Assembly (NCBI GenBank): GCA_963556145.1
Contig: OY744471.1
Span: 3,775,590 to 3,839,589 of the forward strand
Origin: Hygrocybe punicea
Taxonomy: Eukaryota; Basidiomycota; Agaricomycetes; Agaricales; Hygrophoraceae
Reading direction: 5' to 3'
DNA: 64,000 nucleotides
This document shows positions 11,701 through 35,739 of this stretch, in pieces. The notes under the pieces are model-generated. The model saw only the letters and a program-made list of their open reading frames with translations, ran no database searches and was not told the origin of the DNA. Within the stretch, counting starts at the first letter, position 1. Each line of letters begins with the position of its first letter. The position numbers and the translations under genes are program-made.

Positions 11701-12119
11701 TGGGTCCTCGTCACGGTCACTGGTGGAGAAGGCGTGAGGTTGTTTTAAAAAGAGAGCTCACCTTTGTGGTTTAAAACGAACCGCGAACAAATAAAGCCAA
11801 AGTGTGGACTTTGCATTTTTGACTTGTTTCGCAGCCCTGTTTTCCTGATGCCTGGGTACTATCTGATATACGAAATTTATACATATTCTTAATGTGTTCT
11901 TAGTGTGTTCTTTGTTTTTTTTCTTTCCTTGTTTATTCTCCTTTGTGGCAGAGCATATGCTAGAGAATACATGCTCATAAACTCACACCTTACAGTGTAT
12001 CTTGTCCATGAAACATGAATCAGCCGAGATGGACAATTCCCACTCTGAGTGGGCCAGCCAATCTTGGCCGACCAATATCTTTCTCCAGGGCAGATGGCTT
12101 GGCCAAGGGGTCTATGTTC

Positions 12120-12330
12120 TGAGGTACATGAGTTGGCCGAAGCAGAGGGATATATTGGCCAACCGGTCTGGGTATTTTGGCTGGCCATGGAACATGGGTT
12201 GGCCGACAGCCCTGGGTATTTTGGCTGGCCATGAAAGATGGGTTGGCCGACCGGTCTGGGGTTTTTGGCTGGCCATGGAACATGGATTGGCCAACCGGTC
12301 TGGTTATGTTGGCTGAATACTATATCTTGG
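12120..12330. repeat. Tandem repeat of about 45 bp rich in TTGGCC and TGGCCA
   Basis: Four or so imperfect units. The phrase TTTTGGCTGGCCATG recurs at about 12174, 12219 and 12264, each followed by a GGTTGGCC word. Looser TTGGCC words extend left to about 12050. The short palindromes TGGCCA and ACCGGT are repeated throughout. The frames across it are repeat artefacts. Confidence 0.65.
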
Positions 12331-12415
12331 CTTGCTGGCCATTATTGGCAGATTGTTATGGTCCAGTTGGTTAGGAATATCTTAGTTTGAACTAAATCTT
12401 CTCTAATGATATATA

Positions 12416-15400
12416 TTACTCCATCTTGTTGGCAAAGGCAATTTCCGCTTGTGCTATCATATTCCTCCACATTACCATCTGTTTTTCAGCATAACAGATG
12501 TGCCCCCTCAGTCCGGGACCAACTTTGTCACGATGTGCTTCCCATTGCACTTCCTGGTGTTGCAACCAACGAATCGTGTTACCCATTTCTGACTTGACGC
12601 TTTGCAATTCTTCAGACCACTGATCATATCTGGCCTTTCCATGGAGCCAGTTTACACGATACACTGTATAGTAGTAAGATCTTCCATGAATTGCTGTAGG
12701 AGAACCATTATTTACCTTCCTGCATCCAATTGTTGTCCCCAGTATTATTCCTATCTTTCATCCGCCAGATCCAGGGAAGCTTGTGACTCCTCTGGCCCAC
12801 TCTATTCTCCTCAAGCATATCACCACTCATCTTGATATCCTCCTGCCTCAGCACTTTGAAACGATCCAAAATGTCTGCACTCCCCCCTAGACTGACCAAT
12901 GCTCGACAAGCCTGCCTGTAGCTGGTGGCATATTTGGAAACTTTTTGCTGGATGGCATGTATGTCGTCCCATGCTCGAGTCTTCTTCTTCTGACTGTTTG
13001 CTCCATGGACAGAGGTTTGAAAAATTACCATTTTCTCACCCAGTGTCGTCCTCAAGTTTTCCAAACAGTCGTTTGCTTGCCCCACCCTGAGTTCCACCTC
13101 CTGAGCAGCCAAATTTTCCAAACCCAGCCGAGCACATTCCTCGATTCCCAAGGTAGATGGCATTGTAAGTCGACAGTTTTCAGGCCATTCTGTGACATTA
13201 TCATCTTCTTCTTCATCTACCTCACCCTCCTCATCCAAATCCATGATCCAATCATCAGCATCTGATTCATAATTCACCAAATTACAGTCATCCACTTGTT
13301 CACCCAGTATTCCATGCATTTTTCTGTGGAACGAATCGATTCGAGACTGAAGCCTATTTTGACGATCCTCCAGATTTGCCTTGTCTGTGAAACTGCCTGT
13401 TTTTTGAACAGCACGCAAAGTTGTCTTCAGAGTATTCCTGTAGGGTAAACAAATGTCAAAGACGATTGATGAGAATGAGGATACATCCTACTGTGCTTGT
13501 TCTATGTTTATTCCTTCACTTAAAATTGTCACCCGACCAGCCATTACATCTTTGGGGTTCCCTATGGTCAGTCTCAACCTGATCTCGGCCTGTGATGGTG
13601 CTGGTGAAACATCATTACCGTGTCCAAATTACCCACACTTTATAAGACAAACCTTTCTCCATTCTGACGTCGAATACCCTCAAATAGTCACCACAGAAAT
13701 CCATTGCCCTTGTTTCTTCTTCCTTCCACTGTGACAGCACTTGCTCATCAACAGTTTCGGAAAGCTCCTCAAAGGCTGCCTTCATTTCCTGCATTCCATC
13801 TACTGCTTTATCATACCTTTTCAACAAAGACCGAACTGTGGGATGGCTATGGTGATGATTTGTATTGATGACATGCCTGTGAATCACGTACCCATTCCTA
13901 CCAACTTCTTCCAATTCGAATCCCTCATAAGGTCATCCAGGATCTCACGTTGTTGGGATTTTGACATGAAACGAATAAAACTGGAAATCTTGTTGATGAT
14001 AGCCCACAGTGCTCCAAAATTTCACCATCCTGCTGAACAGCACCATGAATGAAGTTGAGACTGAATAGGGCAAAACACTTGGCAACATGTGCACCAAGAT
14101 GAAACTTGCCCACAGCCCCAATGATCTCGAGTGCCTCGGGGAGAGTGAGGTGGTCAGAATCGGAAACCCTTTTAGCAAAATTGATGAGCCAACTGCAGAT
14201 GATATCATATTCCACCAGTGCTTCCTTGATACCACTGTGGCACAGCCTATTGAGAGCATTGCATATTGAATAATCAATGTTCATGTGTCTGGTGCAGGCT
14301 GTTTAATAAATTTGTGACGATTCATAGCTCAAAACACATGACTGACCGTTCACCCTTCTGGAAGTCAATGACACTGTGCGGTACAAAGCAACCATGCTTT
14401 GCACAAGCACATGCACTGATTCCAGTAGCATATAAGTTATGCCGATTGGCATTGGCTTGGTTGACAGCCTTATGGTTCGAGCACTGTGATCTCTGATAAT
14501 GGATCATTGATTTAGCATTCACGAAATTCACAATTTGATAAATACCTCTTTGGACTCCAGGGAAGCTGCCAGATGAGCACGATAAGGTGCATCCTCAACC
14601 ATATAGCCTTGTCCATCAATAAGCCCAACGTCATCATCAGGCTTCCGCATGTTAATCTGCTCAGCTTTGAAATTCCCGTCGACGACGATGCTGGGCCTGT
14701 AAAGTCACCTGTTTCCGTGTTTGGTGAGGTACTACATGAAAACTGATCAGAATGACCCACTGATGAGGTCTATCCGTCCAGTTCTGCGGAAGATTTATCC
14801 CTGGCTGGGGACATGCAGGGCAAAACAATGCCAGATCGCCATTACCAGGCTCCCTCTCAGTATCATGCCCAAAGCCAAATCGTTTCCTGAGGTTCAAGTA
14901 CCGCCACTGTCTTGAGACCCTCATTAGTTCATGATAACGATCCTGAACAACATAACTCAGTACTTTGTCCTGTATGGACTGTGTAACCAAAGAAGAAGTA
15001 TATCACGAACCGGCAATGTATCTGGAAATGCGTTTGAAGACAGTCTCCTTAACTTGTTATAAAAGTTGTTTGCAGACGTTTTGCACTCCATCGAATCAAT
15101 GTAGAAATGATCCAGGAGCTGGAAAGTGAAGGCTGATGATGGCCGTTTTGCCATTGCAGGATACAAATGCATTCGAAGTAGTTGAATGTCTTGAGTAGGG
15201 GCATCTGGGCAGGAGCACCATCGGATTCGACGTCGGTAAATTCCATTCATATGAGTGACAGTGAGGATATCCTCCTTGGCATGAACACCCAATTCCGATT
15301 CCAAATTGTCCTCCTCATCCAGGCCAGACATTAAAATATCCCTCACAGATGTATCTTCGACAGATGGCTCCTGTCCATCATGTCTGTATGACGGACAATT

Positions 15401-15979
15401 GCCTCCACCATGGCCAAGACACATGACCAGGCCAATCATATTAAGGTCATATTTCAAGAAACATTTGCCATTCCAGATCTCAATTCTGTGGAATGGATCA
15501 TGCTTGTGTGTCTGCAAACAACAACGCTGGCAGAACGAAGGACAACCATAGCAATCAGGGCAACGAATAGACATATCAGCCATGAGACATGTCTGGCACG
15601 TAACATCAGAAGGGGGGGCCTCAGATGATAAGAGTTCGGAGAGGTATTGCTTGTGAATCGCTTTCCAGGCTTCCATTTCATCATTCTGTGTCTAATTGAC
15701 ATGCAATCAAAATCAAGTTGAACAGATAATAGTTGTGTCAACCTTTCCACTCTTATTTCGGTGTCTCCTTGTCAGAGGCTCCTCCTCTTCCACAAATGAC
15801 GTTGAGGGCATGGGAGGATCTTCACTCCTTTCTGATTGTTTTACAGGACTTGGCTGACGAATGACTGGACGAGCCTTGACTGTCTTTCCACTTCGTTTCT
15901 TTGCCACCACCATAAATTCAACCTCTCTGGCAAATTCCTTTTTTTTTCCTGACTGGGAAGTGACTTTCGATTTCGGCAT
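12416..15979 (-). pseudogene. KDZ-family transposase with CxC region (frameshifted)
   Basis: This is a cut-and-paste transposase of the Kyakuja-Dileera-Zisupton (KDZ) group, read on the minus strand through about nine short introns. In order: a basic start (MPKSKVTSQSGKKKEFAREV); the cysteine-rich region with CQTCLMADMSIRCPDC and RWCSCPDAPTQDIQLLR (15676-15049); a block ending CPACPQPGINLP (about 14800); NFKAEQINMRKPDDDVGL (about 14650); ACAKHGCFVPHSVIDFQKGE (about 14370); the catalytic-core region with EYDIICSW and GKFHLGAHVAKC (14284-14030); and an acidic, coiled-coil-like C-terminus (13418-12416). The frame breaks once near 14010-14020, where QQDGEILE must shift by one base to continue as LWAIINKISSF. 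All other exons still join. It is divergent from the dioxygenase gene at 20.5-22 kb and next to a Ulp1-like gene. The family call is strong; activity is doubtful because of the frameshift. Confidence 0.85.
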
Positions 15980-16185
15980 GGATGAACAATAGTTGGATGA
16001 GTGTGGGAAAAGTGAACAAATGACACGCATTATAAAGACCAATGCACGAGGCAAAACACATGGCGAATAATAAATATGACATAAATTATGTGCCTTGACA
16101 TACAAATACATTTCAGTACAGGACAAGGTTACAAATCCAATGAACTGTCAGAATCTGATACCATCATTGGGGCCTCAAACCAACC

Positions 16186-17880
16186 TCAGACCAATTTAAC
16201 ATCACTGGATGAACCCTCCTTTCCTTCCACTACGACCCTGTCCAGCACATCCCTCTGAAGGCAATTGCGAACAGCTTGCCTGCGCAAGGCCCCCTGGAGT
16301 TCCCGACAGAGTGTGGGTATTCGCCAGTCTTGCCATGGATCTTTGGCAGCTTTGATGGTACTCTTGTCACCCAGCATGATGTCCATCATTTCCATTGGGT
16401 TTTCTAAGAAGATTCAAAGGAAATGCAGCATATAGATACCACAATCATCAAAATTTGGCTGTCCAGGTACCTGAAAACAAATCTTCAATTCAGTCACAAC
16501 ACTGACGTTAGACATTGGTCACCGTGAGGGTGACTCTCTTGATATGTGCCAGCTTTTTCACCTGTCTGGTGTTCATCGCAATGCCGGCCAGCCACGCATG
16601 CACCTAGGATATATCTTTATGATGGTTCGCTGGGGGCAGTGAATTGAGAACAAATGTTACGCTAATCGAAGATGAGTAAGTTCAAGGCAAAGCTAAAATG
16701 GATAATTACGTGTGCAGTCCATCAGCAGGATTTTGTGACAAACATGCACCAGGATTTGTCACGATAATCAAATACCAGTTGTCACTGATGGTGAGGTGAG
16801 ATGTTGCCTTCATGAAAGCTGTCTGCATTCACCCAGTGGGAACAGGAAAAACCAAGTATTGGAGCGAAAATATGTCGATTGCCTTCGTCCACCTCTTCAA
16901 ACTCTTCACACCGTTCTTCCTGTGTCCAGATTCAAAGGAAATTAAGTTATATGAACCACCAAGCAACGTGTACCTCAATTTCTCCATGAAAAAAGTAATG
17001 AATATGTGTATGTTTTCCGGCAAATCTGGTTGATGGATTGCTGCATTCTGCAGAGCATAGCTGAAACAGGAATAAGCTACTGCACTGGAGGGTAGAAATA
17101 TACTTACTGGGTACCGAAATTAATCAGTTCGTCATCTAGCCAATCCTTTTCCAAACGTTGATATGAAATCCATGGAACTGCACCCTGCTCTGAGTATTTT
17201 GCAACGGTACACGTATTTTCAACCCTAGAACACCTGAGTGAGCGATGGGCCTGGCAATGGCTATGTTATGTACATGACCGCATCTGGCCTTTCATTTAAC
17301 TGCAAAAATCGGCCGTTGGTGTCGACATCGTTTCTGTTGAAGTAGAGATTAGTTGTGGTATTATGAATTTGTTATACTGACTGTAAATATTCGATGCTAC
17401 TTTCGCCCAGTGTGCTGGTGAGCAAACTGAGCAAATCTGCATACATATCTGTCGTCCAGGATGCATGCTCGTTGTCGAAATAAATGCCAATTTGATGTTT
17501 TGACACAATTTCTGAGTATCAATTGGAGTCACATATAACCTCATGGAAATGGTGGAGTACCATTGTTCTTTCGGCCTAAAAACACGCAGGTTGACTTGTC
17601 CATATGTCGAGACACGAGCACATGCAATATCAAGCCGCGTATCTGCTCTTCATTCGGTTTTGTGGCCTACAAAATTACGTGAATATCAAGGGTGGGCTCT
17701 TGACGACTAACAATCACCTGGCAACTGACAACATCATGTTTGACCAAAAGTTGCATGGTTGCAGAGCTGTCATCCGTCAGAATGCAACACACACTGGTAT
17801 ACCACAGTAAGTAATGATTAGGATGCTGCATGCGATGATTTACCATGAATCTTTGCATTTAAATTCAATGGATGTGTCGC
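16186..17880 (-). pseudogene. Ulp1/C48 SUMO-protease-like gene, interrupted
   Basis: A minus-strand multi-exon gene resembling Ulp1 cysteine proteases, which remove SUMO from target proteins. Visible family landmarks are EKDWLDDELINFGTQ (about 17120-17160), the strand AIDIFSLQYLVFPVP followed after a splice by NWYLIIVTNPGA (about 16930-16750), and the active-site segment VPGQPNFDDCGIYMLHFL with the expected Gln and Cys (16470-16417). Two faults are seen. A TGA at 16416-16414 follows HFL where Arg is expected. The position normally held by catalytic His before Trp reads Asn (DNW). Downstream, PMEMMDIMLGDKSTIKAA runs to a stop at 16186. The 5' exons above about 17520 are uncertain. It lies between the KDZ transposase and the dioxygenase gene. 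Confidence 0.65.
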
Positions 17881-17989
17881 CTTCTGATGATTTGTGGTAG
17901 GTGTGTCCACCAGAGACTGTGAAAAGGACAGGGAGATGAAGAGATGGCATATTAGATTGTTGTTCAGAGATGCACGTGAGGGTTGAAAA

Positions 17990-19234
17990 AAGAGACGCTT
18001 TTGCATCATGTGATGCGGAGTCCAGTCCACATGTGATGCCTAAACTTGACATCACATGCGATGTCACATGCATGATGTCACGTGTACACGTCCAGACGTG
18101 ACGTCACCTGTGTGATGTCATGGCGTTTCTATGACCGTTGTACACGCTCAACGACGTGGGGAAAATGACTGAGCGTTGCATATTGCACACTGTCTCTGAC
18201 ATTACTTATTCCCTTGGTAGACATTGTTCTATCTTTGCGATTAGAAATCAAATGCCACCCTGAGCATTTGTTTTTATTTGGTCAGAATTCACCTTATTTC
18301 GTCACATCCTGAGTCGCAACATCAACGTTCTGCAAGGTAATTTCTCATGAGGCTAATACACTACGATATTTCTGCGTTTCAATGTTCACTTGTACTGCAG
18401 CAAATGACAGCTCCCTTGTATCCTTGGTAGGGCGCTGTACCAGGAAATTTTCCAAAGCCATATTTATGACAGTTCTTGTTGATATGCCGCCTGGTGAAAC
18501 TGCTCATGTTCACGATATTGAATGCTTCCCACCATCTGTGTAGAACATTATACTGAACCCACTTTTGATTGTGTAGGGATGTGCCTGAAATCTATTCACG
18601 TATTTTCATGTGGCCGCCACCGAACAAGAACGTTATTCTGTCCGATGGCCAGGCATGACGCAATCGGAAGACACAGGCCCTGCACAAACGCCATTCCTGA
18701 AAGACAGTTGGCCACCCATGTTTGGTGTGGACAAAGATGTTCGTATGTGTATGGGATATTTCGTTCACCTAGCCACTAGTTTTGCTACAGGTCTGCTACA
18801 TCCTTTGATCTTCAGTCCAATTTCTGAATGTTCTTGTTCAGCACACCTTGTACAAATGCAGTTGAATTCAAGGCACTGGTGTACATTATTTGGAAGCGAC
18901 ACTGTAATTAAATGTCTTGGTAACAAAGTGCCGTTCACAATGGTCCTAGCCAGATTATGAATTATATTGACAATTTTCACATCGTTATAATTACATTTCT
19001 CTACAACAGTGCCATTTACAACGTTGCCAGCCTGTATATAAATTTGGACGGTGATGAGTCACAGGTGTGACTCGTCACCATCCAAACTTGGCCACATCAT
19101 GTGAGTGAATTCACTTCACGTGATGAATCACAACCGCGTTTGTCACATGAACAAATACAACCAATCACAAGCGCTCATTGAATTATTTTTTCCCTCGTTC
19201 GTTGTTTTCCGCCTCATCATTGTTCATCCCACAC
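17990..19234. other. Spacer with TGACGTCA-type palindromes; no gene assigned
   Basis: The segment 18050-18130 is dense in overlapping palindromic words (GATGTCACATGCATGATGTC, GTGACGTCAC). It lies upstream of the Ulp1-like gene and could be a divergent regulatory region, but nothing proves this. The rest up to 19234 has only short open frames (for example 18522-18960) with no recognised family. Confidence 0.4.
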
Positions 19235-19537
19235 TGCGAGATTGTTGTACGGGTAGGGTACGGGTACGGATTCCTGGACCCGCCAGTTTTTTTTCAAGCC
19301 CGGGATCGTCCAAAACGGTCAAGTATTGAGCTAGATATGCTCAAAATACTTCATTGGAGTATTTTGAGCATATCTAGCTCAATACTTGACCGTTTTGGAC
19401 GATCCCGGGCTTAAAATGACGGGTACAACCCGCGGGTATTGTACCCACGGGTACAACGGGTGCGGGTATGGGTACAGCCAAAAATACCCGGGGGTTACCC
19501 GTGCAATACACTAGTTGTACCGGGCAACAATCTCGCA
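19235..19537. mobile_element. 303-bp miniature inverted-repeat element
   Basis: The ends TGCGAGATTGTTG and CAACAATCTCGCA are exact complements. Inside is a perfect hairpin of about 55-bp arms (about 19297-19413, centred near CTTCATTGGAG), flanked by GGGTAC-rich sequence. It has no coding capacity. No convincing target duplication could be read. Confidence 0.7.
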
Positions 19538-19674
19538 TTCTGGGATGCTATGCATTTGGCATTATGTCTCATTCTCCTACCCGAATGGTGAGTGGTTTGC
19601 TATGTCTCCACTGACTTCCATTGATTTAGAATATTGGTAAGTAACTGATTGTTTGTCACTGCGATTGATCTTCT

Positions 19675-20175
19675 ACAGCTTTCCGACACGTTTTCCACCT
19701 GGATTAATTGTGGCATCAGTGCGTGCCCACCCGGTGGTGGCTGGTCCTCAGAAATGGGCGCTTGCTGCTGCCGGTCAACATGGAATGAAAGGGTGGGTGA
19801 ATCCCCCTGATTTCCTTGCCAGGCAACCTCCTTGCAGCGGGCCTGGCGGTGTACCCAGTTACAACCATGGTGTGTGTCTTCGCAGTTTAACATTGCCTGT
19901 GTTGACACATTGACTCCCAGGCGGTATGTGTGGTCTTGTAGTAGTGATTCACTTATTGTAGCTGCTTTATGTCGGGGTACAGCCTTGCTAACAATTTTAC
20001 TTGTTTCAGACAACTTCTCCATTGGCACAAGTTGTGGCATCAGTGTGTGCCCACCTGGTGGTGGCCAGTCCCCTGATATGGGTGCCTGCTGCCGCCGGTC
20101 AACCTGGAAGGAAAGGGTGGGTGAATCCCCTGGACTTCCTTGCCAGGCAACCTGCTTGCAGCAGGCCTGGCAGCC
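19675..20175 (+). repeat. Tandem duplication of an exon-like unit, step about 330 bp
   Basis: The block at about 19690-19855 recurs at about 20030-20175: GTGGCATCAGTG, GTGCCCACC(C/T)GGTGGTGG, GGGTGGGTGAATCCCC, CTTGCCAGGCAACCT. Both copies are preceded by an acceptor-like run (TTCTACAG or TTTCAG) and read as a Pro/Gly-rich frame. It may be a duplicated 5' exon of the dioxygenase gene that starts near 20.5 kb, or a simple local duplication. Confidence 0.6.
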
Positions 20176-20498
20176 TCGTTGATATCAAGACAAGTAAGTC
20201 TCTTTGTACTTTTGACTATTCTATCGTTCACAAAATGGCACAGGTATCAATCAGCTAGTAAACTTGCGTGTTCTGTATGCATATAAACTGAATCTGCTTG
20301 GGATTGAGATTGTTTTTTCTATGTGTTTTATTTCACAGTCAGTTGTGCATGTGAATTGGTAAAATCGCTGTATGCAACGAATTATTGAATGCTAAAAGTT
20401 CTAACCATAACCCCATGTTAAATTATACTGCCTCAAGGCCACCATGTGTAATGAAACCGTTGTTCTGAATTCTCAACCAATCTCAATTCTCAACCATT

Positions 20499-21996
20499 AT
20501 GTACGCAGACAGAATCCCCTCAAAGAATGCACAATCCAAGGCAATGGAAACCTTGCTTTCCGTCAACATGAAAACAACGGATTGTGGTCTGGCTCCGAAT
20601 CTAAAGAAACACATGTGGACGAGGCTGAGAAGAATCCTTTCAAACACTACATCGTATTATAGGAAGTCGGGCATGCGCCCTCCGAAGTCTCCTGTAGAGG
20701 AATGCAAACGGCTGAGGTCAGATCCATGCTGCTTCAATGTCATATCTTACATATTTTGCAGGTCGCGTTTGATGATGCTGAGGGATCAGCTTCCAGTTAG
20801 CAAGGTCTTGGGCGATTCAGCCCTAGATTCCCAAACATTCTCAGAGTCGGAAATGGTCTCAGAATCTGAACTGGAGAGGGTTCTCCTCACTGTGGCAGCC
20901 GTGATTTTGAACCCTAGTACATTGCTGCCATGAAAGTCGGCATATTTAGACTGACATCTTGTGGCAAAGTAATTGTGCCCTTGGATGCGAATAGACTGGC
21001 AAATCGAGTGAAGAATATCAAGGAGACTTCGGATGCTGACAATGAAAAACTACTCAGGTTTTTTCAGGAGATTCACATCGGACATGTGAATGAACCAGCG
21101 ACAGTAATCGACACGTGTGGTTTGCTTTTGGTCTGGTATCTACCTGATGTTGTAACTCCAAGACGTATTGTGAGTCACTTGCCCCCCCCGGAAATATGGT
21201 TTTTAACAGTACCCACTGCAACACAGGAGGAATTGAATGTCAGTGCTGAAATGATAACCAAAATTCTGGAAGAATCCTATTCCGAGTCCCTCAAAAAAGT
21301 TGAGAAAGGGAAAGATCCACTATGGAGGAAAGATCCAAACATTTTCTTTCCACCTCCAAACCCACGATTTCACCCAGGATCAGTGGATTTTGCCGCAGCA
21401 TGGTTTGCTCAGGGTAGAGAGGTAACACCTTTAGTTAGTCGTCTTATTTACATGAGCTGCCCGTCTGTTTTTTTCAGCGACTCACCGATAGGTTGATCAC
21501 GTCAACAACTCTTCGAACAACTGAAGCCACCATGTGGATGGCTGCAATTGAACCCAGCAAGCTGATCTTCAACGCAATTACTGCGTTAACCCATCAGTCA
21601 TTGTACACAGCTGGCCTTCTGGCTGTGACAAAAATCTGGGACGGTGAAATGATCGAGAACGTGGAAACACATGAAAATGCTAAGGAGTGGACATCTGTTT
21701 ACACTGGAATCGCCATTATCGTTAATAGGATTACAACTCGACACAGAGATGCTGGAGGGTGTCCAGAATGGTATGATTTGCTGGCCAGTTGTAGGACACA
21801 TACGAACGCGGAACTAGCCATCCCTGAGTGTGATGCTACGTTCTCTTATTCGCCAGGAACCGTCATCGAAATTTGTGGCAAGGTTCTCAGTCACAGTGTA
21901 GGCAGATGGGAGGGTGGTGAAAGAATATGCATGGCGCATTATATGCGAAACATGGTACATGACCATCTCAAGATTGACAAGCCCACCTGGAGCTGA
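20499..21996 (+). CDS. TET/JBP-type 2-oxoglutarate/Fe(II) dioxygenase
   Basis: This resembles the fungal TET/JBP oxygenase family, which oxidises methylcytosine or thymine in DNA using Fe(II) and 2-oxoglutarate in the nucleus. The core reads in order: LLVWYLPDVVTPRRI (about 21125-21170), FHPGSVDFAAAWFAQGRE (about 21369-21422), an intron 21423-21478, MWMAAIEPSKLIFNAITALT, GIAIIVNRITTRHRDAGG with the Fe-binding His-x-Asp (His at 21742, Asp at 21748), and ERICMAHYMRNMVHDHL with the distal His at 21937. The C-terminus is KPTWS-stop. All catalytic residues expected of the family are present and the core frame is open. An upstream intron is likely at about 20714-20760. The start is uncertain: reading between 20760 and 20930 changes frame around a Glu/Ser-rich segment. 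Association of this family with KDZ transposons is known in agaricomycetes, and one lies 4.5 kb away. Confidence 0.75.
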
Positions 21997-22002
21997 CACA
22001 AT

Positions 22003-22300
22003 GTGTTTGCAAGGGAGATGAATGCAGAGTTTCAGGCATCACAGGAATGGAGATGGAATTAGCTATAGTGCCAAGGGAGATATCATCCTAATGTGAAAGT
22101 ACAACAGCTACCATTGCATGCTTTGTACGACTGTAGTCAGAAACCTCTGTGTGGAACTAAATCTCATTATCCTCATTCACAGATGACAAAGACCTATGAG
22201 TTTCAGCTGACAAATATCTAGACAGTGTCCGGAGAATTTCCCTGTCTTTACATTGACAACTCTGTGACATTGACAACTCTGTCAATTCAAAATGTGTACT
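22003..22300. other. 3' flank of the dioxygenase gene
   Basis: Non-coding sequence between the dioxygenase stop and the TA target of the split palindrome. No gene. Confidence 0.5.
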
Positions 22301-23554
22301 TACAGCCATTTGTGGTGAGCTTGACACTTGTGGGAAATTTTTTGATTGATTAAAATAATATGGACTTGGTGAAAATTTCTGTGCTCTACCTTGTATCTCA
22401 TGAAGTACTGCATGGATTAACATGGTTACAGAGGGAAAGTTGTACTATTTCTTAAGGGCTATCTACTGCTATCATTACATTTGGACCATATTTTGTATTT
22501 GGTGACTTGTGGATGAAACAAAAGGTAAACCAGTACTTTTTGACACCCAAAATGATATTGTCAAATTATGGCATCAAATGAACTCCTATGAAAAGAATTG
22601 TAGGGAGAAATTTATTCATTTTTTCAAGGGCTAAATATACATATACCGTGTATTTCTTTATTTTTGTCCTTTGAGCTCAGAATCATGATTCTTGTGGCAT
22701 TTCAACCCTAATGTGGACAAACATAGTACAGATGAAATATTGCCTCAAAGGACAAAAATAAAGAAAAACACTTCAGGCTACCCCCAAACCTGAACAACTA
22801 GTTACAACTCACCTCTAGTACTGAACCATCTACATGTTGGTAAAAGTACTGGGCAGCCCTGGGACGATACGTTGGGACGTCCCATTGTCCCTGGTCTGGT
22901 GTATGGGATGGCCCATGGGACGACATTTGGTGTTGTGGGATGTCCCATGGGACATGGGACATCCCACACATAAGGGGTGTCTGGGGGCATTTGGGACGTC
23001 CCTTCCGTAGCTATTCAATAGAAATCTCAGAGTGATGACAGCATCTAATTATAAATTTCCAGGCCTTATCATGGCCACTATGGGTACCATGGGTGCTATA
23101 GCATAGTATAAGATTGTATATACTTATTCTTTTGAGAGTCACAGAGCTGATTGTTCTTCAAGGTCAGTGGCAGGGTGTGGAGATACAGCAGTTCTTTCCA
23201 CATATAAAGACAGAACGAGTGGGAGAGGAAAAGTGCTGGAGATGTTGGGTATTGAGATGGGATTGAGGGGGAGGATTGAGGGTGTGCTTCTAGTAAACCA
23301 ATCCCTTGTGCATGTGGCAAGCTGAAGCTTGTAGGGGAGTAAGTGAGCAGAGCATGCATGATATACAAAGAAAAGTAGGGCTATATATGCAGAGGAGGCT
23401 GAGCTGAAAATTAAACACGTGTATTATGAAGACCTTTTGATCAGGATATCAGTGGTTATTACATTATGGGCTATGCATACAATGGCTGACTGGGAAGCAG
23501 ATGCAGAGGAGAGATCTGAAATTAGAGTGTGTCTTGAGGACAGTGGACTTGGGT

Positions 23555-24075
23555 AAGGAGACATCTCACAGAGGTTTTATTGGGACATCTCACAGGCTCA
23601 TCTGGGATGTCCCTGTCAGCTTGCAGCTGAGGCTTTCAGACATCCCTGTCATCTTGTGTGACATCCCACCAAGGCTTTGGGACGTCCCACAGCCTTGTCT
23701 GGGACATCCCTGCCAGCTTGTGGGACATCCCACAGCCTTCTCTGGGACGTCCCTGTCAGCTTGTGGGACGTCCCAGCCAGCTTGTGGGACGTCCCTGCCA
23801 GCTTGTGGGATGTCCCTGTCAGCTTGTGGGACATCCCACCGAGGCTTTGGGATGTCCCACGGCCTTGTCTGGGACATCCCTGTCAGCTTGTGGGATGTCC
23901 CACAGCCTTGTCCGGGACATCCCTCTCAGCTTGTGGGACGTCCCACCAAGGCTTTGGGATGTCCCACAGCCTTGTCTGGGACGTCCCTGTTAGCTTTTGG
24001 GATGTCCCACAGTCAGTTTGTGGGATGTCCCACAACCTGGTGTGGACATCCCAATGTACAGGCTTGTGGGACTGC
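23555..24075. repeat. GGGACGTCCC-type palindrome array, left arm
   Basis: More than a dozen decamers of the form GGGACGTCCC, GGGATGTCCC or GGGACATCCC occur at intervals of about 24-36 bases, linked by CAGCTTGTG and CACAGCCTTGTCT phrases. The same array in reverse is at 26630-27090. Smaller clusters lie at 22860-23005, 27640-27800, 50710-50860 and 51425-51560. The frames of 60-200 residues across it (repeating WDVP and GTSHSL) are repeat artefacts. Confidence 0.85.
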
Positions 24076-24899
24076 CTGCTTGCTCAGCATCTGCTAAGTC
24101 ATACAATAATAATCATTCCAATCCACATCTTACATAATTTTAAATAATTTACATTTAGCAACTACTTAAAATAGATATAGCAAATCAAATAATTATTTTA
24201 CCTAAATACATGGTATTCTACTTATCAGGGGAGAGGCAGGGAGGTGGAGGTGGAGGAGAGGACAGGAGAGGGGGCAATGGCAGGGGCAATGGCAGGGGGT
24301 GGGCAAGGGGAGAAGGGCAGGAGGTGGATGGGAGGTGGATGGGAGGTGGGGGTGGCAGGGGGCAGGAGATAGGCAGGGGAGAAGGGGCAGGTTAGGAAGG
24401 GACAGACTAGGAGACAGTCAGGGGGAGAATGGAAAGGAGGAGGGAGGAGGGGGAGGGGAAAGGAGGGGAAAAACCAACAAAATTACACACCGGTGTTCCC
24501 TGGTGTCCACACCCCTCCGCGTCCTCGCCCTTGTCCCCCTCCTCGTCCTCGTCCCCGTCCCCATCCTCGTCCTCGTCCTCGTCCTTGTCCCCGTCCCCGT
24601 CGTCCTCGTGTTCGTCGTTTTCGTCCCCGTTCCTGTCCTCGCCGTCATCCCCGTCCCCGTTCTCATCGTCCTCGTCCCCGTCCCCGTCGCCCTCGTCCTC
24701 GTCGTTTTCGTCCCTGTCCCCATCCCCGTCCCCGCCGTCCTCGCTGTCCTCACTGTCCCCGTCCTCGTCGTTGCCGTTGTTGTGGTCCCAGTCCCCGTCG
24801 TTGTCGTTGTCATCCTCGTTGTCCCTGTTGCCGCCATCCTCGTTGTCCCGGTCTCTGTTGTCCTCGTCATCCCGTTCCCTCGTCCCGGTCATCCTCGTT

Positions 24900-24999
24900 N
24901 NNNNNNNNNNNNNNNNNNNNNNNNNNNNNNNNNNNNNNNNNNNNNNNNNNNNNNNNNNNNNNNNNNNNNNNNNNNNNNNNNNNNNNNNNNNNNNNNNNN
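24900..24999. other. Assembly gap (100 N)
   Basis: Exactly 100 N bases, the usual marker for a gap of unknown size. It sits where the left arm of element 1 enters low-complexity GTC-rich sequence and beside a 210-bp palindrome. Confidence 0.95.
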
Positions 25000-25209
25000 A
25001 TTGTGTTCCAGACAAGTGCCTGGTAGTTGGTGGTGCAGGGAATGTGTTGTAGCCAAAATATGATGAACTTGTCCCTCACATTCCATTCATGATTGTGTGT
25101 GCTTATACGGACTTTTGATTGTCTAGCCACAATGCAAAGATCCAACTCCATTTTGGCTACAACACATTCCCTGCACCACCAACTACCAGGCACTTGTCTG
25201 GAACACAAT
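25000..25209. repeat. 210-bp palindrome at the centre of element 1
   Basis: It begins ATTGTGTTCCAGACAAGTGC right after the gap and ends with the exact complement. A diverged counterpart lies in element 2 at about 36760-36947 (TGCCTGGCACTTGGTGG ... CCACCAACAATCAGGCA). Confidence 0.8.
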
Positions 25210-25467
25210 TTATACCTTACCTAGCACTCCTAGAATTAATTTGAGATTTTTCAGATGTGTACTCGCAAAGTTAGCTGTTTAAGGGTCCAATTTTGGCAGA
25301 GGCATAAAATGCATGGTGAATATCTTCACATATAAAATGAAATAAAATGCATAAACTCCCCTCGGGGTAGGTGTATCATACCTACATCTCTTCAGGGTCT
25401 TGCCCTGGCCATTGAGGTGTTGTAGTACATGTAATAATAATAAGAAAATCCAGCCACCCTTCCCTAT

Positions 25468-25895
25468 ATGGCAACTCGACCCCGTTTGGGACATCGGCAA
25501 ATTCCGGTTGAAAGTCTCGTGCACGAGTTCAACAAGACTTGTCGCTTTCAACAACGACGCGACAACGGGTGCGGATGCCAGAGCACCCCAGGTAAGTCGT
25601 CCATTTATCTTTTTCATTTATTCTACTAACTACTTAAATACTTTTAGGTTTTTTTGCCACACCCTTGCACCAAATGAACGCGAACAAAACAAGCAGACGC
25701 GGATGCGGGCGACAAGGAGGGAGGTCACAGCCCAGAACGGGGACAACCCAGGCCCACCACGACAACAAGAACGGGGACGATGAGAATGAGGACGACGGGG
25801 TAAACGAACGAACGCGACCACGGCGCGAAAGGGGAAGACGACAACGGGAACCGGGAACCACAACAACGGGAAGACGACAACGAAGACGAGGATGA
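25468..25895 (+). CDS. Small two-exon gene of element 1 (unknown function)
   Basis: Exon 1 (25468-25591) starts ATG and reads MATRPRLGHRQIPVESLV followed by a Cys-containing end. A GT-AG intron runs 25592-25647. Exon 2 reads HQMNANKTSRRGCGRQGG and becomes an Arg/Thr/Asp-rich tail made from the GAC/GGG low-complexity DNA, ending at 25895. The protein would be about 120 residues. The homologous gene in element 2 (37202-37628) keeps the ATRxRLG motif, the intron position and the basic/acidic tail. No domain, signal peptide or membrane segment is recognised. Conservation between two otherwise different elements is the only evidence that it is real; the tail may be poorly constrained. Confidence 0.5.
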
Positions 25896-26629
25896 CGAGT
25901 AGGGCAGCGGGCATGGGGACCAGGACGACGACCGGGAGGGGGAACGGGACGACGAGGACCACGGAGCCCGCGACAACAAGGACGACGGCAACGGGAACGA
26001 CGAGCACGACGGGGACGACGACCAGGACGACGACCAGGACAGTGAGCACGGGAACGGGGACGGGAACGGGGACGAAAACGACGAACACAAGGACGACGGG
26101 GACGGGGACGACGACGACGACGACGACGACGACGGGGACGGGGACGAGGACGAGGAGGGGGACAAGGGCGAGGACGTGGAGGGGTGTGGACACCAGGGAA
26201 CACTGGTGTGTAATTTTGTTGGTTTTTCCCCTCCTTTCCCCTCCCCCTCCTCCCTCCTCCTTTCCATTCTCCCCCTGACTGTCTCCTAGTCTGTCCCTTC
26301 CTAACCTGCCCCTTCTCCCCTGCCTATCTCCTGCCCCCTGCCACCCCCACCTCCCATCCACCTCCCATCCACCTCCTGCCCTTCTCCCCTTGCCCACCCC
26401 CTGCCATTGCCCCTGCCATTGCCCCCTCTCCTGTCCTCTCCTCCACCTCCACCTCCCTGCCTCTCCCCTGATAAGTAGAATACCATGTATTTAGGTAAAA
26501 TAATTATTTGATTTGCTATATCTATTTTAAGTAGTTGCTAAATGTAAATTATTTAAAATTATGTAAGATGTGGATTGGAATGATTATTATTGTATGACTT
26601 AGCAGATGCTGAGCAAGCAGGCAGTCCCA

Positions 26630-27095
26630 CAAGCCTGTACATTGGGATGTCCACACCAGGTTGTGGGACATCCCACAAACTGACTGTGGGACATCCCAAA
26701 AGCTAACAGGGACGTCCCAGACAAGGCTGTGGGACATCCCAAAGCCTTGGTGGGACGTCCCACAAGCTGAGAGGGATGTCCCGGACAAGGCTGTGGGACA
26801 TCCCACAAGCTGACAGGGATGTCCCAGACAAGGCCGTGGGACATCCCAAAGCCTCGGTGGGATGTCCCACAAGCTGACAGGGACGTCCCACAAGCTGACA
26901 GGGACGTCCCACAAGCTGACAGGGACGTCCCGGACAAGGCTGTGGGATGTCCCACAAACTGGCAGGGATGTCCCAGACAAGGCTGTGGGATGTCCCAAAG
27001 CCTTGGTGGGATGTCCCACAAGATGACAGGGATGTCCGAAAGCCTCAGCGACAGGGACATCCCAGATGAGCCTGTGGGATGTCCCAATAAAGCCT
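26630..27095. repeat. GGGACGTCCC-type palindrome array, right arm
   Basis: Inverted counterpart of 23555-24075 within the right arm of element 1. The order of units is similar but not identical: one or two units differ in number and several differ by C/T or G/A within the decamer. Confidence 0.85.
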
Positions 27096-28409
27096 CTGTG
27101 AGATGTCTCCTTCTGTCCTCAAGACACACTCTAATTTCAGATCTCTCCTCTGCATCTGCTTCCCAGTCAGCCATTGTATGCACAGCCAATAATGTAATAA
27201 CCACTGATATCCTGATCAAATGCTCTTCATAATACACGTGTTTAATTTTCAGCTCAGCCTCCTCTGCATATGTAGCCCTACTTTTCTTTGTATATCATGC
27301 ATGCTCTGCTCACTTACTCCCCTACAAGCTTCAGCTTGCCACATGCACAAGGGATTGGTTTACCAGAAGCACACCCTCAATCCTCCCCCTCTTTCCCATC
27401 TCATTACCCAACATCTCCCTCTCCCACTCCTTCTGTCTTTATATGTTGAAACAACTGCTGTATCTCCACACCCTGCCACTGACCTTGAAGGACAATCAGC
27501 TCTGTGACTCTCAAAAGAATAAGTATGTACAATCTTATACTATGCTATAGCACCCATGGTACCCATAGTGGCCATGACAAGGCCTTGAAATTTACAACTA
27601 GATGCTATCATCATCCTGAGGTTTCTATTAAATATCTAGAGAAGGGACGTCCCAAATGCCCCCAGACACCCCCTCTGTGTGGGATGTCCCATGGGACATG
27701 GGACATCCCACAACACCAAATGTCGTCCCATGGGCCATCCCATACACCGGACCAGGGACAATGGGACGTCCCAACGTATCGTCCCAGGGACGATGGTTTC
27801 GTCCCAGGGCTGCCCAGTACTTTTACCAACATGTAGATGGTTCAGTACTAGAGGTGAGTTGTAACTAGTTGTTCAGGTTTGGGGGTAGCCTGAAGTGAGA
27901 AAAACACGGTATATGTACTTTTAGCCCTTGAAAAAATGAATAAATTTCTCCCTACAATTCTTTTCATAGGAGTTCATTTGATGCCATAATTTGACAATAT
28001 CATTTTGGGTGTCAAAAAGTACTGGTTTACCTTTTGTTTCATCCACAAGTCACCAAATACAAAATATGGTCCAAATGTAATGATAGCAGTAGATAGCCCT
28101 TAAGAAATAGTACAACTTTCCCTCTGTAACCATGTTAATCCATGCAGTACTTCATGAGATACAAGGTAGAGCACAGAAATTTTCACCAAGTCCATATTAT
28201 TTTAATCAATCAAAAAATTTCCCACAAGTGTCAAGCTCACCACAAACGGCTGTAAGTGTGTACTTACCAGGCAATTCACATGATGTGGTCACACTGGCAC
28301 ATGTGATCACAGTTGACGCGTCATTTTTTTTTACCTTCTGCACCTCTACCATCTAGCCTCAGCCTCTCTTAAATTGCTCTCAGATACACTCAAATTGAAC
28401 ATTTTGCCA

Positions 28410-30330
28410 ATGTCCGCATCAGCAAGCACCTCTTCGCCATCAATCGCTTCTCTACATGCCTCTGTCATGTCTGGCAGTGATTTCCGAAGCATGAATGTGT
28501 TCCAGGACTTCCCATGGGTCAATGGCACGCCTCTTGCTGAAGATTCACTTGAGAAGGCTATCGTAACCTTAATTGGAAATCAGTCTGCTCTAGGAAACAC
28601 ACCATCCACCTTGGCTGTGATGGTGCATCAAATCTCTCACCTTGTAACATTGACAGTTGACTTGTCTGCTAGGCCCTGGCAAAGCAATTGGATTATGTGA
28701 ATCCCATAGGTGAAATCTCACGTAAAGGCCAAATCATCCAAGAATACCTCTCTGCTGATGGCTCTGTGATGCATGATGTGGCAAGGTGGACTACTGTGTA
28801 CCGGAATGACCTCCTCATAGCGGCTCACTCAATCCTTCGCTATACCCTGCTAGATAAGCTCATGGACACTGTTGGGCTGCCCTGTCATCCAAGTTTCAAA
28901 GTAATTCGGAGATCAGCGAAACCACAGATGAGCGAGAAGTTGACCAAGGTGAGTTGACCATTCACATTTGAGAAGGCATTTTGAGGTGACGTTTGCACAC
29001 CGTCTCGAAGCTCTACAAATTTTTCAGAGACTGGAGTAAGCCGATCACAAAGCTTCGTATGACATGCAAAAGTCTATTAATCACGCAACAAGATCAAGAA
29101 GTGGTGGGTGTTTCAGCCATGGCAGTGCCGCAGAAATTGGTGTCCAGTATGGACACCATCCCGATCTTTGCAGTCGCTCTCCCAGCACACTTGACACCAG
29201 CCCAAAAAGAAGTAGAAATGAGCCTCCGGATCCTTTACCGTGCATCTGTCAACCTTGAATCCTCTGACGTCAACCAGATCCTCCTCAATCTAGAGCTTCT
29301 GGCATTCTCATTCACTTGGTTTGGCCAGGTATGTGATGTATGTTCTATGTTCTATGTGTGTCAGACTTTGTACAAAAACAGGGCAACTCATATGTAGACT
29401 GCGACTTCACATCATGGGTGGAGAAGCTACAGAGGTTGGGATTGCGTTACAATCACATTACACCTGCTGCAAATAAATAATCCACATGGTTTCAGGATGG
29501 CCAAGAGTGTTGATCTACCGTTGCAAGACTCATTTGTCAATTCCCTCACCACCAAGTCTTTCGGAGGTTTAATGTATGATCGGATGAGAAATCTATTCCA
29601 CCTAAGCCTCACACTGTCGCCCATAATTACTCTTCTCCCACGATGTTTCAATCATGAAGCTCATGCATGGCCATCTCTCATGGCAGTGAGTCCATTATTT
29701 GTGCCAGCTTGGATGTAGTTGACGTAAGGAAAAGATCACGTTTGCCTTGGGGAATGAAAGGCCTCCATTCCTTGCTCAAACGGAGAGGGCGCTTTGGAGG
29801 GCCATTACAAGAATATGTTTAGGATCTTCGGCGATGCAGGAGCTGAATGTATTCCTCCAAGAATACGATTTGTTGGAGGACAGCGTCCAGGGAACAGAAC
29901 AGGACTTTAGTTGGTTTTGTTTTGACAGTAAGATACGCTGCCTGTCTCTACATTTATCACTGGGACTGACAACAGATGTTGCAAGATAAGGAAGTGGAGG
30001 ACCTGACCAACTCTGCTAGTCAGCTTACATTTGCACCGAAACAAAATGTTCCAGTAGACCCTAAGGCAGAAAAAGGCCTGCAGGGAAAAAGTGCCGAGAA
30101 TGACAAGCCTGCATCAGGCAACCCTCTTTCCAGCGATGATGAACTGCTTCAATTGAAAATTAACAAGAAGAAGAGGGGTGGACCATTGAAGGAGCTTGCT
30201 TCACGTGGACAGAGCTCTATGTTGACCCAAAGCCAGGCCAAAATGTTGGACAAGGTCGGGGACTCTTTGAAAGGCAAGGAGAAGCAGAAGGCAGAGAAAG
30301 TCCAGAAGGAAGAGAAAGTCATGGTCGCGC
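28410..30330 (+). pseudogene. Unrecognised multi-exon gene truncated by an LTR
   Basis: Plus-strand exons can be followed from an ATG at 28410. They read a Ser-rich start, FQDFPWVNGTPLAEDSLEKA, then after a one-base frame change near 28665 ALAKQLDYVNPIGEISRKGQ and GSVMHDVARWTTVYRNDLLI. Introns at about 28949-29025 and 29328-29379 separate the next exons, one containing LTPAQKEVEMSLRILYRASV. Later exons include DLPLQDSFVNSLTTKSFGGL, and a Lys/Glu-rich end runs into the LTR at 30331. I do not recognise the family. The frame change and missing 3' end suggest a decayed gene. Its position just beyond the KDZ/Ulp1/TET-JBP cluster makes it a candidate passenger of the same element, but that is not shown. 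Confidence 0.5.
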
Positions 30331-30655
30331 TGATACACACTCATACGCGCTGACCACCGAATTGACGAATCGGACAGATTTATACTATCCTTCGAAAACA
30401 AGTCCGACATCTTGCGACTTTGCAATAGCTCACGACAACTAGTACGACTCCTCAATCATATCGTGATCATCTCCGACGACATCGCGGACCAAGATAGAGA
30501 AACCCCTGAATCGGATCGAGCCCTGGACCCTCAGATAATAGTTTGCCTTTCATAACAGTAATACCCCGTTTCATCTTAGATACACTAAACTTGTTTAGAG
30601 TACCTATTCCCTTTCTTCCATCCAGCTCCTTTGTTCTTCCTTTGTTACAGGATCA
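30331..30655 (+). mobile_element. 5' half of a family B LTR
   Basis: It begins TGATACACACTCATACGCGC and follows the intact LTR (48714-49473) up to GTTACAGGATCA, where similarity stops and zinc-cluster gene sequence begins. The missing 3' half is found in opposite orientation at 47804-48242, with a 3-base overlap (TCA). Confidence 0.85.
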
Positions 30656-32423: not shown

Positions 32424-33325
32424 CAGTAGACCCAGTTGTTTTGGTTAACCCAATCGCAGATATAGTTACAAAAGGTAGGTACACATAGCCCAGTTGCTTG
32501 CTGGGGGGGTAGGTTAACCCAAAAGACAGCTCTTGCTGGGGAAATGTGGGGTGATAGGTTGACCCAGGTACAGCTCTTGCTGGTCAAGGGTGGCCAGGTG
32601 GGTCAACCCAGTGTCAGCTCTGCCATGGGGTAGGTTAACCCAGGACAGCTATTCTGGATTGGTTGGGTTGACCCAGGTCCAGTTGTTCAAGCAATGTGGG
32701 TTGACCTGGCTGCAGCACTTGCTGCAGCACTGGGTTGACCATGGACCAGCTCTTGCTGCAGGCTTGGGTTGACCTGGGTCCAGCTGTTGCTGCAACACTG
32801 GGTTGACCTGGGCCCAGCAGTTCCTGCAGGGTAGGGTGGCTGGGGTCCAGGTATTGCTGCAGCACTGGGTTGACCAGGTTTCAGCTGTTGCTGCAGCACT
32901 GGGTTGACCAGGGTCCAGCTCTTGCTGCAGGCTTGGGTTGACCGGGGTCCAGATATTGCTGCAGCACCAGGTTGACCTGGATCCAGCACTTGCTGCAGGG
33001 CTTGGGTTGACCAGGGTCCAGCTATTGCTGTAGGCTTGGGTTGACTGGGATCCAGCTCTTGCTGCGGCACTGGGTCGACCCAGGTCCAGATATTGCTGCA
33101 GCACTGGTTTGACCCAGATCCAGCGCTCGCTGCAGGCATTGGGTTGACCAGGTTTCAGCTATTGCTGCAGCACAGGGTAGACCCAGGTCCAGATATTGCT
33201 GCAGCGCCGGGTTGACCCAGATCCAGCGCTTGCTGTGGGGCTTGGGTTGACTGGGTTCCAGCTACTGCTGCAGGCTTGGGTTGACCGGGGTCCAGGTATT
33301 GCTGCAGCACTGGGTTGACCTGGAT

Positions 33326-34657: not shown

Positions 34658-35739
34658 ACCTGGATCCAGCGCTGGCTGCAGGGCTTGGGTTCACCGGGAT
34701 CCAGCTATTGCTGCAGGCATGGGTTAACCCAGGTCCAGATATTGTTGCAGCACCGGGTTGACCTGGATCAAGCACTTGCTGTGGGGCTTGGGTTGAATGG
34801 GGTCCAGCTATTGCTGCAGCACTTGCTTTACTCAGGTCCAGCACTTGCTGTAGGGTAGGTTGACTGGCATCTGGCCTGTCCTGTAGCATTGCATTGATTG
34901 CAGATCCACCAATGTAGCAGGATTGGGTACATGAGGGTCCAGCTATTGCTCCAATGTTGTGTTGACATGGCCCTGCTCTTCTGCAGCATTCGGTAGACCC
35001 TGGCCCAGCTCCCACTGCAGCATTGACTTGACCAAGGTCCAGCTTTTGCTGCAATGTGGGCCCATGTCAGTGCAATGGCTTGCGCTACATCTCACTCTGC
35101 CTGCATGTATTTAATGTTGACAGCATTGACAGAGCTCACAGCAGCTCAAGCCAATATTTATTCAGAAACTGCCATATATATAAAACAATCAAAATATTTC
35201 AATCTGTACTGAACATAAATGTACCATGTAATATAATTTGAATGCACTTATTAAAAGCACAGGGAATAGCAAAATTACACAATTATTATTTTGACAATGC
35301 ACAATATCTTACTTTTACTATCAGCTATCAGCCATTACAGGAGTTACTTATTCCTAATGACAACCTATGGCAAAACCAGAAATTACCCCATTTGGAATAT
35401 TGTGCTTTTCTATTTAATATTGCTCAATTCTCTATTGGAATATATATAACCTCACTATTACTTAAAATACACACATACATTTAATGATTATTAAAATACA
35501 TAATTAAATAGTAAAGGGCAGGAGGCAGATGGGTGGGTGTGGAGTGGGAGGAAGAGTGTGGGTGTGGGAGGAAGGTGGGAGTAGGAGAAGGATAAGGAGG
35601 GAGGGGAGGAGGGAAGGGCAGGAGGGAGATGGAGACAGAGACAGAGATGGAGATGGAGACGGAGATGGAGATGGAGATGGAGATGGAGATGGAGACAGAG
35701 ACAGAGAGGGAGGAAGAGTGGGAGTAGGGGTGGGATGTA

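Follow-up and report, generated by a model that had tools for sequence, protein, structure and literature searches.

A KDZ transposon family of Hygrocybe punicea that carries genes for a Ulp1-type protease and a TET/JBP oxygenase

The window analyzed here is a stretch of 64,000 nt from Hygrocybe punicea (GCA_963556145.1, contig OY744471.1, positions 3,775,590 to 3,839,589, forward strand), and comparison with sister copies elsewhere in the genome places its genes for a KDZ transposase, a Ulp1-type protease and a TET/JBP oxygenase inside one bounded, multi-copy transposon. A first-pass annotation had noted these genes side by side, the KDZ and Ulp1-like genes on the minus strand and TET/JBP on the plus strand, which is borne out by matches to Pfam PF18758, PF18803, PF02902 and PF12851; its proposal that they are transferred together as one element agrees with the presence of all three within ends bearing target duplications in many copies. 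A bounded, multi-copy and apparently recently active family with putative genes for both a DNA-methylation eraser and a SUMO protease opens a testable question, namely whether SUMO removal, besides DNA demethylation, is needed for transposons to escape silencing. The features of the window copy are as follows (positions in the window).

11977..11983, no strand: candidate left 7-bp target duplication ATAAACT, inferred from its position beside the left terminus
11984..30332, no strand: group A copy of the KDZ transposon, with its left end kept, its right end missing and nested insertions; left terminus CACACCTTACAG common to sisters, sister alignment stopping at ~30330
11984..12315, no strand: left terminal region, 44-bp tandem repeats
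12416..15979, minus: gene for the KDZ transposase, running from Met at 15979 to its last stop at 12416; Pfam KDZ and CxC2
16129..17142 (about), minus: Ulp1/SENP-type (C48) protease, catalytic part; N-terminal exons reach further upstream; inactivated in the window copy
16441..16443, minus: Ulp1 catalytic Cys codon, kept in the window copy (DDCG); Cys in 10/10 group A/B sisters
16643..16645, minus: Ulp1 catalytic Asp codon, Asn in the window copy; Asp in 9/10 group A/B sisters
16778..16780, minus: Ulp1 catalytic His codon, Asn in the window copy; His in 10/10 group A/B sisters
19254..19513, no strand: nested hairpin insertion of ~260 bp between Ulp1 and TET, missing from sisters aligning across the site
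20918..21996, plus: TET/JBP oxygenase gene, catalytic exon 21439-21996; additional exons likely on the 5' side, starting near 20.4 kb
22303..28252, no strand: nested palindrome of 5.95 kb, inserted with termini CAGCC…GGCTG and TA duplicated; absent from sisters aligning across the site
28253..30332, plus: fourth gene, 5' part (putative JmjC-like), cut off at ~30332

Boundaries of the element and state of the window copy

The alignment of sister copies gave the termini of a KDZ transposon family of ~20 kb as CACACCTTACAG… on the left and …CTGAAAGGGCTC on the right (CACACC…GGGCTC). These ends form long, imperfectly inverted stretches, and complete sisters have at their right end an inverted version of the 44-bp tandem-repeat region of the left end. 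An exact 7-bp target duplication was present in nine of the 13 copies inspected at both ends, and two more showed a single mismatch. The 13 comprise three copies taken whole, all exact, and a second set of ten, with six exact duplications, two with one mismatch and two without a match. The first-pass annotation had expected a duplication of 8 bp, and this was rejected, as three alternative 8-bp readings fit only 0, 1 and 1 of the 13 copies. From the first 100 left and right ends among the matches listed, 40 end pairs were built, 17 of them spaced 18.5–22.0 kb; CxC2 (KDZ-cluster) and Ulp1 matches lie within all 17, and TET within 16. Group B copies share long matches that are mostly 97–99% identical, so their spread was probably recent. 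Within the element, Ulp1 and TET are on opposite strands. The three-part cassette proposed earlier is correct in that all three genes lie within the element, but complete sister copies carry a larger gene set than this trio.

Terminal repeats had not been located in the first-pass annotation; the ends of the family and the left end of the window copy (11984) are now placed, but the right terminus of this copy was not found anywhere in the window. No copy of the element's next segment beyond ~30332 lies near the window locus on the contig, among the matches listed, and ATAAACT has no right partner here, the right end of this copy being absent. Judged from the sister alignments, the window copy is broken, with truncation near 30,332. 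The 5.95-kb palindrome was considered as the inverted ends of the element, and this was ruled out by the same alignments, in which it appears as a nested insertion outside the KDZ/Ulp1/TET cassette.

The genes of the element

The KDZ transposase gene matches the KDZ domain (PF18758, E 2.7e-15, 13925-14302, minus strand) and the CxC2 cluster (PF18803, E 2.7e-26, 14957-15691, minus strand), and no stop occurs in 319 codons of the two exons examined. The TET/JBP domain was recognized by PF12851 (E 1.2e-11, 21439-21996, plus strand), and the His-x-Asp and distal His that had been described as intact were found as His-Arg-Asp at 21742 and His at 21892, along with Arg at 21922. By these sequence features the window gene encodes a TET/JBP 2OG-Fe oxygenase domain, and the closest solved relative of a sister-copy TET protein is CcTET (E 1e-18).

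The Ulp1-like exons lie between the KDZ and TET genes, as first reported. Joined by eye, with in-frame stops entered as Q or X before the search, they match PF02902 at E 4.9e-20, over the curated cut-off, and the exon 16829-17119 on its own reaches 21.2 bits, where the cut-off is 20.7. Since the catalytic His and Asp are both replaced by Asn and three in-frame stops occur in 276 codons, the protease of the window copy is a dead member of the C48 family; stops are found in the Ulp1, TET or KDZ exons of several sister copies as well. A family-wide loss of the catalytic His, suggested by the window copy, was ruled out by the sisters, all ten of which retain it, and the His-Asp-Cys triad is intact in one subfamily C copy and in one relative without a KDZ match. 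The catalytic residues are conserved over roughly 50–60% identity, and Ulp1 is under purifying selection: dN/dS was 0.35 and 0.44 when group A was compared with group B, and 0.14–0.18 against subfamily C, where dS is near saturation (1.5–2.0). Among solved structures, a sister Ulp1 protein matched chains of Ulp2 and SENP1/2/3/5/7, the best being Ulp2 (5lnb, E 6.8e-19) followed by SENP1, and a protein database search with Ulp1 returned no matches. Proteases of the C48 family may also have NEDD8 or ubiquitin as substrates, and inert members are possible.

The fourth gene is possibly JmjC-like in sequence. A firm JmjC assignment was rejected, as the motif was seen by eye only and the sole profile match was a cupin-family chain (E 1.8). 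Searches of Pfam, NCBIfam and PDB yielded nothing significant, a larger profile gave only an unrelated chain (E 1.5), structure models had mean pLDDT values of 35 and 34, and a protein database search found five proteins, all without Pfam domains. An HMG-box spotted by eye in the right-most gene, a suggestion that reportedly goes back to Iyer et al. 2014, gained no support from Pfam and PDB.

Association across the genome and possible roles

Ulp1 is found upstream of, and on the same strand as, 54 of the 56 KDZ copies of the window lineage, and both Ulp1 and TET are present at 36 of these. Because the copies stem from few ancestors, such counts do not represent independent events; that the KDZ-Ulp1-TET arrangement is not due to chance follows from the genome-wide recurrence of its order and orientation, and the spacing recurs as well. 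Proximity of C48 genes to TET beyond chance had been proposed as a check, and in this genome 32 of 68 C48 matches lie within 12 kb of TET; 2000 random placements gave 1.7 on average and never more than 8. Of the 68 matches, 25 are near neither TET nor the window KDZ lineage. Other KDZ families in the same genome are near TET in 21 of 46 copies, and a Pfam C48 match within 12 kb was seen in none of the 46, a control of limited sensitivity since exon-wise Pfam detects Ulp1 at only 36 of the 56 main-lineage copies. The expected presence of Ulp1 at other KDZ/TET pairs therefore extends to the window lineage but not, by Pfam, to these other families, indicating that the trio is a feature of one lineage and not of KDZ/TET pairs at large. 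As TET-bearing families without a Ulp1 match coexist in the same genome, Ulp1 may be dispensable for TET-bearing KDZ elements generally, although the control is a weak one.

A KDZ family that holds relatives of TET and Ulp1 between its own ends likely brings its own tools against host silencing. On the reading we regard as probable, what lies in the window is a broken member of a ~20-kb KDZ transposon family in which the transposase would mobilize the element and the oxygenase and protease would jointly lift host silencing. TET would oxidize 5-methylcytosine on the element, as reported for its relative CcTET, and so open the element promoters, and the Ulp1/Ulp2-like protease would strip SUMO from its targets, for which we favor SUMO-dependent heterochromatin proteins present at the element over the transposase or TET. 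A rather unlikely alternative to the joint lifting of silencing is that Ulp1 de-SUMOylates the transposase or TET and so prevents their SUMO-triggered degradation, with no direct chromatin role. This would suit the position of Ulp1, which immediately precedes the transposase and shares its strand (54/56), and the kinship of the sister protein to Ulp2, a chain-trimming SUMO protease, but Ulp1 diverges alongside TET and not KDZ (dS 1.5–2.0, 1.5–1.6 and about 0.4, respectively, in a single subfamily C copy), and one Ulp1-TET block is present without a KDZ match, both of which tie Ulp1 to TET and not to the transposase.

Genes captured by transposons usually decay, and the mutations in the window Ulp1 and in some sisters would be expected if it were passenger cargo, amplified with the element and functionless for it; purifying selection, catalytic residues kept at roughly 50–60% identity and the occurrence of Ulp1 at nearly every KDZ copy of the lineage (54/56) make this improbable. 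C48 genes do occur elsewhere in the genome (the 25 of 68 mentioned above), yet it is hardly conceivable that the three genes are unrelated neighbors, with the Ulp1 exons belonging to a host gene or another transposon between KDZ and TET, as order, strand and spacing are constant in dozens of copies, inside end pairs with target duplications. The element boundaries rule out chance neighbors and also the host gene that the first-pass annotation had named as the case against its proposal. An extension of the joint anti-silencing reading, offered tentatively and with some doubt, is a layered kit in which the TET DNA-base oxidase, the Ulp1/Ulp2-like SUMO protease and a JmjC-like dioxygenase would act simultaneously on DNA methylation, on SUMO and on marks of histones or other proteins. 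Ulp1-TET would be an exchangeable module, which in subfamily C has been swapped relative to the transposase and elsewhere is found without a KDZ match, and the kit would be convergent with plant KIU. If true, SUMO removal would generally accompany DNA demethylation when transposons escape silencing.

Relation to known transposons

TET-bearing KDZ transposons of mushrooms were reportedly treated by Iyer et al. 2014. Zisupton of fish, with a KDZ transposase, was reportedly described by Böhne et al. 2012. Mushroom KDZ (Kyakuja/Zisupton) elements with TET are already published (Kojima 2025, PMC12730594), the main text of which reports that CcTET oxidizes 5-methylcytosine, that Kyakuja has 7-bp target duplications and 5'-CA..TG-3' ends without terminal inverted repeats, and that Zisupton has 8-bp target duplications. 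Set beside that main text, the window family is like the mushroom elements in its KDZ transposase with a CxC zinc cluster and in a TET/JBP protein nearest to CcTET among solved structures, and like Kyakuja in its 7-bp duplication and 5'-CA start. It is unlike Kyakuja in its right end (…GGGCTC, not …TG) and its long imperfect inverted ends, unlike Zisupton of fish in the length of the duplication (7 and not 8 bp; both have a KDZ transposase), and unlike the published TET-bearing KDZ elements in having a Ulp1-type protease. Given the CACACC…GGGCTC termini and long imperfect inverted ends, the family is filed as KDZ and Kyakuja-like, but not as Kyakuja. The terms Ulp1, SUMO, protease, peptidase and C48 do not occur in the main text of Kojima 2025 (PMC12730594), and among the main-text passages, titles and listings that a literature search covered, which did not include Iyer et al. 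2014, no publication joined KDZ or TET/JBP with Ulp1, SUMO, a peptidase or JmjC. A broader search on Ulp1 encoded by transposons in general listed CRISPR/Tn7 papers.

By analogy, the nearest working counterpart is the plant Vandal/KIU transposon (Kaonashi, non-TIR Mutator-like), in which a Ulp1 domain is reported to be joined to the anti-methylation protein VANC and its own role is still unsettled in plants (PMC13317346), and doubt has been raised that KIU proteases target SUMO (PMC6117577). KIU and the window family are both DNA transposons in which a C48/Ulp1 domain is combined with a factor that counters DNA methylation; they differ in transposase, kingdom and anti-methylation factor, and Ulp1 lies within a VANC gene copy in KIU but forms a separate gene beside TET in the window family. 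Built-in controls are present in the same genome, in the form of TET-bearing KDZ families without detected Ulp1, and the combination of Ulp1 with VANC provides the plant parallel.

Boundaries of a KDZ transposon with Ulp1 and TET genes

Pfam searches of the window (C39:3775590–3839589) matched a KDZ domain (E 2.7e-15) and a CxC2 zinc cluster (E 2.7e-26) on the minus strand, a TET/JBP oxygenase domain (E 1.2e-11) on the plus strand, and Peptidase_C48 (E 4.9e-20) in minus-strand exons, joined by eye, between KDZ and TET. These are the sites and strands at which the first-pass annotation had placed a KDZ transposase, a Ulp1-type protease and a TET gene. KDZ transposases are abundant in this genome (92.2 Mb in 42 contigs), with at least 186 matches among the best 150 of 429 candidates, and six-frame scans gave 68 C48 matches and 122 TET matches, 96 of the latter above the cut-off. 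Such genes suggest a fungal host.

With 5.45 kb of window DNA as query, at least 27 other loci were matched (best 28 of 110 candidates scored), and those listed fall into two groups, A (6 loci, 95–97% identity to the window) and B (21 loci, 90–91%). Ten of these sister copies were taken as 20-kb stretches, and four of them were extended. Their alignment with the window begins at about 11980, except in copy A5 (from 12693), and since in the sisters that span window positions 22302/28253 and 19253/19514 the two sides join directly or almost directly, the window copy has two nested insertions:

22303–28252, palindromic insertion of 5.95 kb nested in the KDZ element, ends CAGCC…GGCTG, TA duplicated
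19254–19513, insertion of about 260 bp between Ulp1 and TET, a near-perfect hairpin, missing here in the sisters aligning across

The arms of the larger insertion, about 2.3 kb each, hold 21-bp TGGGAC-type repeats. A second giant palindrome at 32424–39582 has repeat-rich arms of a similar style.

Group B copies reach well beyond TET on its right side and close with the left end in inverted form, the element ends being CACACCTTACAG… (left) and …CTGAAAGGGCTC (right). The left-end 25-mer has 132 genome matches and the right-end 25-mer 188 (up to 3 mismatches), and the reversed controls have none. A 7-bp flanking repeat is exact in all three copies fetched to both ends (AGTTTTG, CCACTGT and GTCCAAG); in ten further copies it is exact in six, differs by one C/T in two and is unmatched in two. 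The first-pass annotation had expected an 8-bp target duplication, which was rejected, as three 8-bp readings fit 0, 1 and 1 of the 13 copies. Among the matches listed, the segment carrying a fourth gene, right of TET, has no copy close to the window on contig C39, and a truncation at about 30332 is therefore assumed for the window copy.

Gene content and association

Pairing 100 of the 132 left ends with 100 of the 188 right ends gave 40 pairs shorter than 45 kb. Among these listed ends, the 17 pairs of 18.5–22.0 kb enclose CxC2 in 17, Ulp1 in 17 and TET in 16 cases. CxC2 is present in one of 16 pairs of 2.6–12.3 kb, and Pfam C48 or TET in none; protein search found a diverged Ulp1 inside the one with CxC2, and as a set these short pairs hold no TET and at most one Ulp1. 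They are probably non-autonomous derivatives or chance pairings. Seven pairs above 23 kb are mixed, with Pfam C48 in two (four by protein search) and TET in four.

KDZ copies of the main lineage were also counted without reference to ends, as CxC2 exons sharing 77% identity or more with the window, leaving out six shorter fragments; 56 were obtained from the best 150 candidates scored. Of the 56, 54 have a same-strand Ulp1 no more than 4 kb upstream, 37 an opposite-strand TET (matches above the cut-off only) no more than 12 kb away, and 36 both. An earlier count by Pfam C48 alone was lower (Ulp1 36/56, TET within 25 kb 43/56, both 28/56), because exon-wise Pfam matches miss diverged copies. 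The first-pass annotation had suggested testing whether C48 genes lie between KDZ and TET/JBP genes more often than chance. Of the 68 C48 matches, 32 lie within 12 kb of a TET match, against a mean of 1.7 and a maximum of 8 in 2000 random placements. As the copies share descent, the matches do not count as independent events, and the element boundaries weigh more than this count as evidence.

As a control within this genome, CxC2 copies from other KDZ families (46 copies, 38–47% identity) were checked. TET lies within 12 kb in 21 of them and Pfam C48 in none, a search that found Ulp1 by only 36 of 56 main-lineage copies and could miss diverged Ulp1 elsewhere. Protein search (best 150 of 225 matches) placed Ulp1 within 12 kb of one, and that Ulp1 adjoins a main-lineage KDZ copy (C2:7781502). 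The association of Ulp1 with KDZ is, at the least, strongly lineage-biased.

The protease, its companions and a possible role

In the ten group A and B sisters the Ulp1 catalytic residues are kept (His 10/10, Asp 9/10, Cys 10/10), with changed neighbours in the DCG motif of one sister. The window Ulp1 has Asn in place of both the catalytic His and Asp, and three stops in the 276 codons examined. Stops also occur in sister Ulp1 (A2, one; A4, two; B2, one), KDZ (A3, one) and TET (A2, A5, B1 and B2, one each), and a full TET exon was not seen in A4 and B6 within the stretch fetched. A sister Ulp1 protein, its exons joined by hand, matched the solved structure of Ulp2 (5lnb, E 6.8e-19) and chains of SENP1/2/3/5/7. 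By the Nei-Gojobori method, comparing group A with group B gives Ulp1 dN/dS values of 0.35 and 0.44; the range is 0.33–0.37 within groups and 0.14–0.18 against the diverged subfamily C (dS 1.5–2.0, near saturation). These values indicate that the protease has been maintained by selection in the lineage. Between-group values are 0.22–0.38 for KDZ and 0.08–0.49 for TET; some high within-group values (TET 1.07, fourth gene 0.73, KDZ 0.61) rest on few changes.

The fourth gene, long and on the plus strand in complete copies, is represented as follows:

L026:3114–8288 (stretch fetched around a sister copy), fourth gene, JmjC-like motifs and a long acidic tail

It had no Pfam match, and a profile search gave a cupin-family chain at E 1.8; the motif H-x-D … G-x-K-Y-W-V … H, read by eye, hints at a JmjC-like protein. 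Its DNA has 42 genome matches, and homologues also lie about 8–14 kb from TET or KDZ matches of other families, several of these KDZ families being TET-bearing. Close to the right end, a gene on the minus strand appears HMG-like by eye.

The KDZ transposase likely cuts and inserts the element, and TET, whose nearest solved structure is CcTET, an enzyme active on 5mC (PMC12730594), likely oxidises 5mC on it. Ulp1 would likely free silencing proteins, or proteins encoded by the element itself, of SUMO. In the plant KIU Vandal element Ulp1 is joined to VANC, a cause of hypomethylation, and its role there is unknown according to a review (PMC13317346); a second paper doubts SUMO as the KIU protease substrate (PMC6117577). 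TET-bearing KDZ transposons of fungi have been described (PMC12730594), in a main text where the terms Ulp1, SUMO, protease, peptidase and C48 do not occur. A literature search found no paper linking KDZ and Ulp1 (Iyer 2014, outside its reach, may mention Ulp1), and Ulp1 is apparently an unreported addition to these transposons.

Possible exchange of the Ulp1-TET block

Between one subfamily C copy and the main element, dS is about 0.4 in KDZ exons, 1.5–2.0 in Ulp1 and 1.5–1.6 in TET. Identity to subfamily C is about 0.85–0.95 over most of KDZ, 0.67–0.87 near its start and about 0.55–0.65 in Ulp1. The difference in dS and the drop in identity suggest that the Ulp1-TET block may have been swapped between elements relative to the transposase. 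In the fetched stretch L035, compared with A5 and B5, identity drops between KDZ and Ulp1.

In a further relative near contig ends on C39, C8 and C20, TET and Ulp1 show the divergent arrangement of the main element; its sites are C39:5903000–5918999 (stretches L033 and L034), C8:6297963 and C20:54188. The C39 copy keeps the Ulp1 triad, and no main-element KDZ exon match was found within about 10 kb downstream of its Ulp1. A JmjC-like exon (L034:4318–4833) lies about 8–9 kb beyond Ulp1, the joined peptide matching JmjC_2 below the cut-off (E 0.0048), and a fourth-gene homologue is located at C39:5896645, beside this TET and Ulp1 pair.
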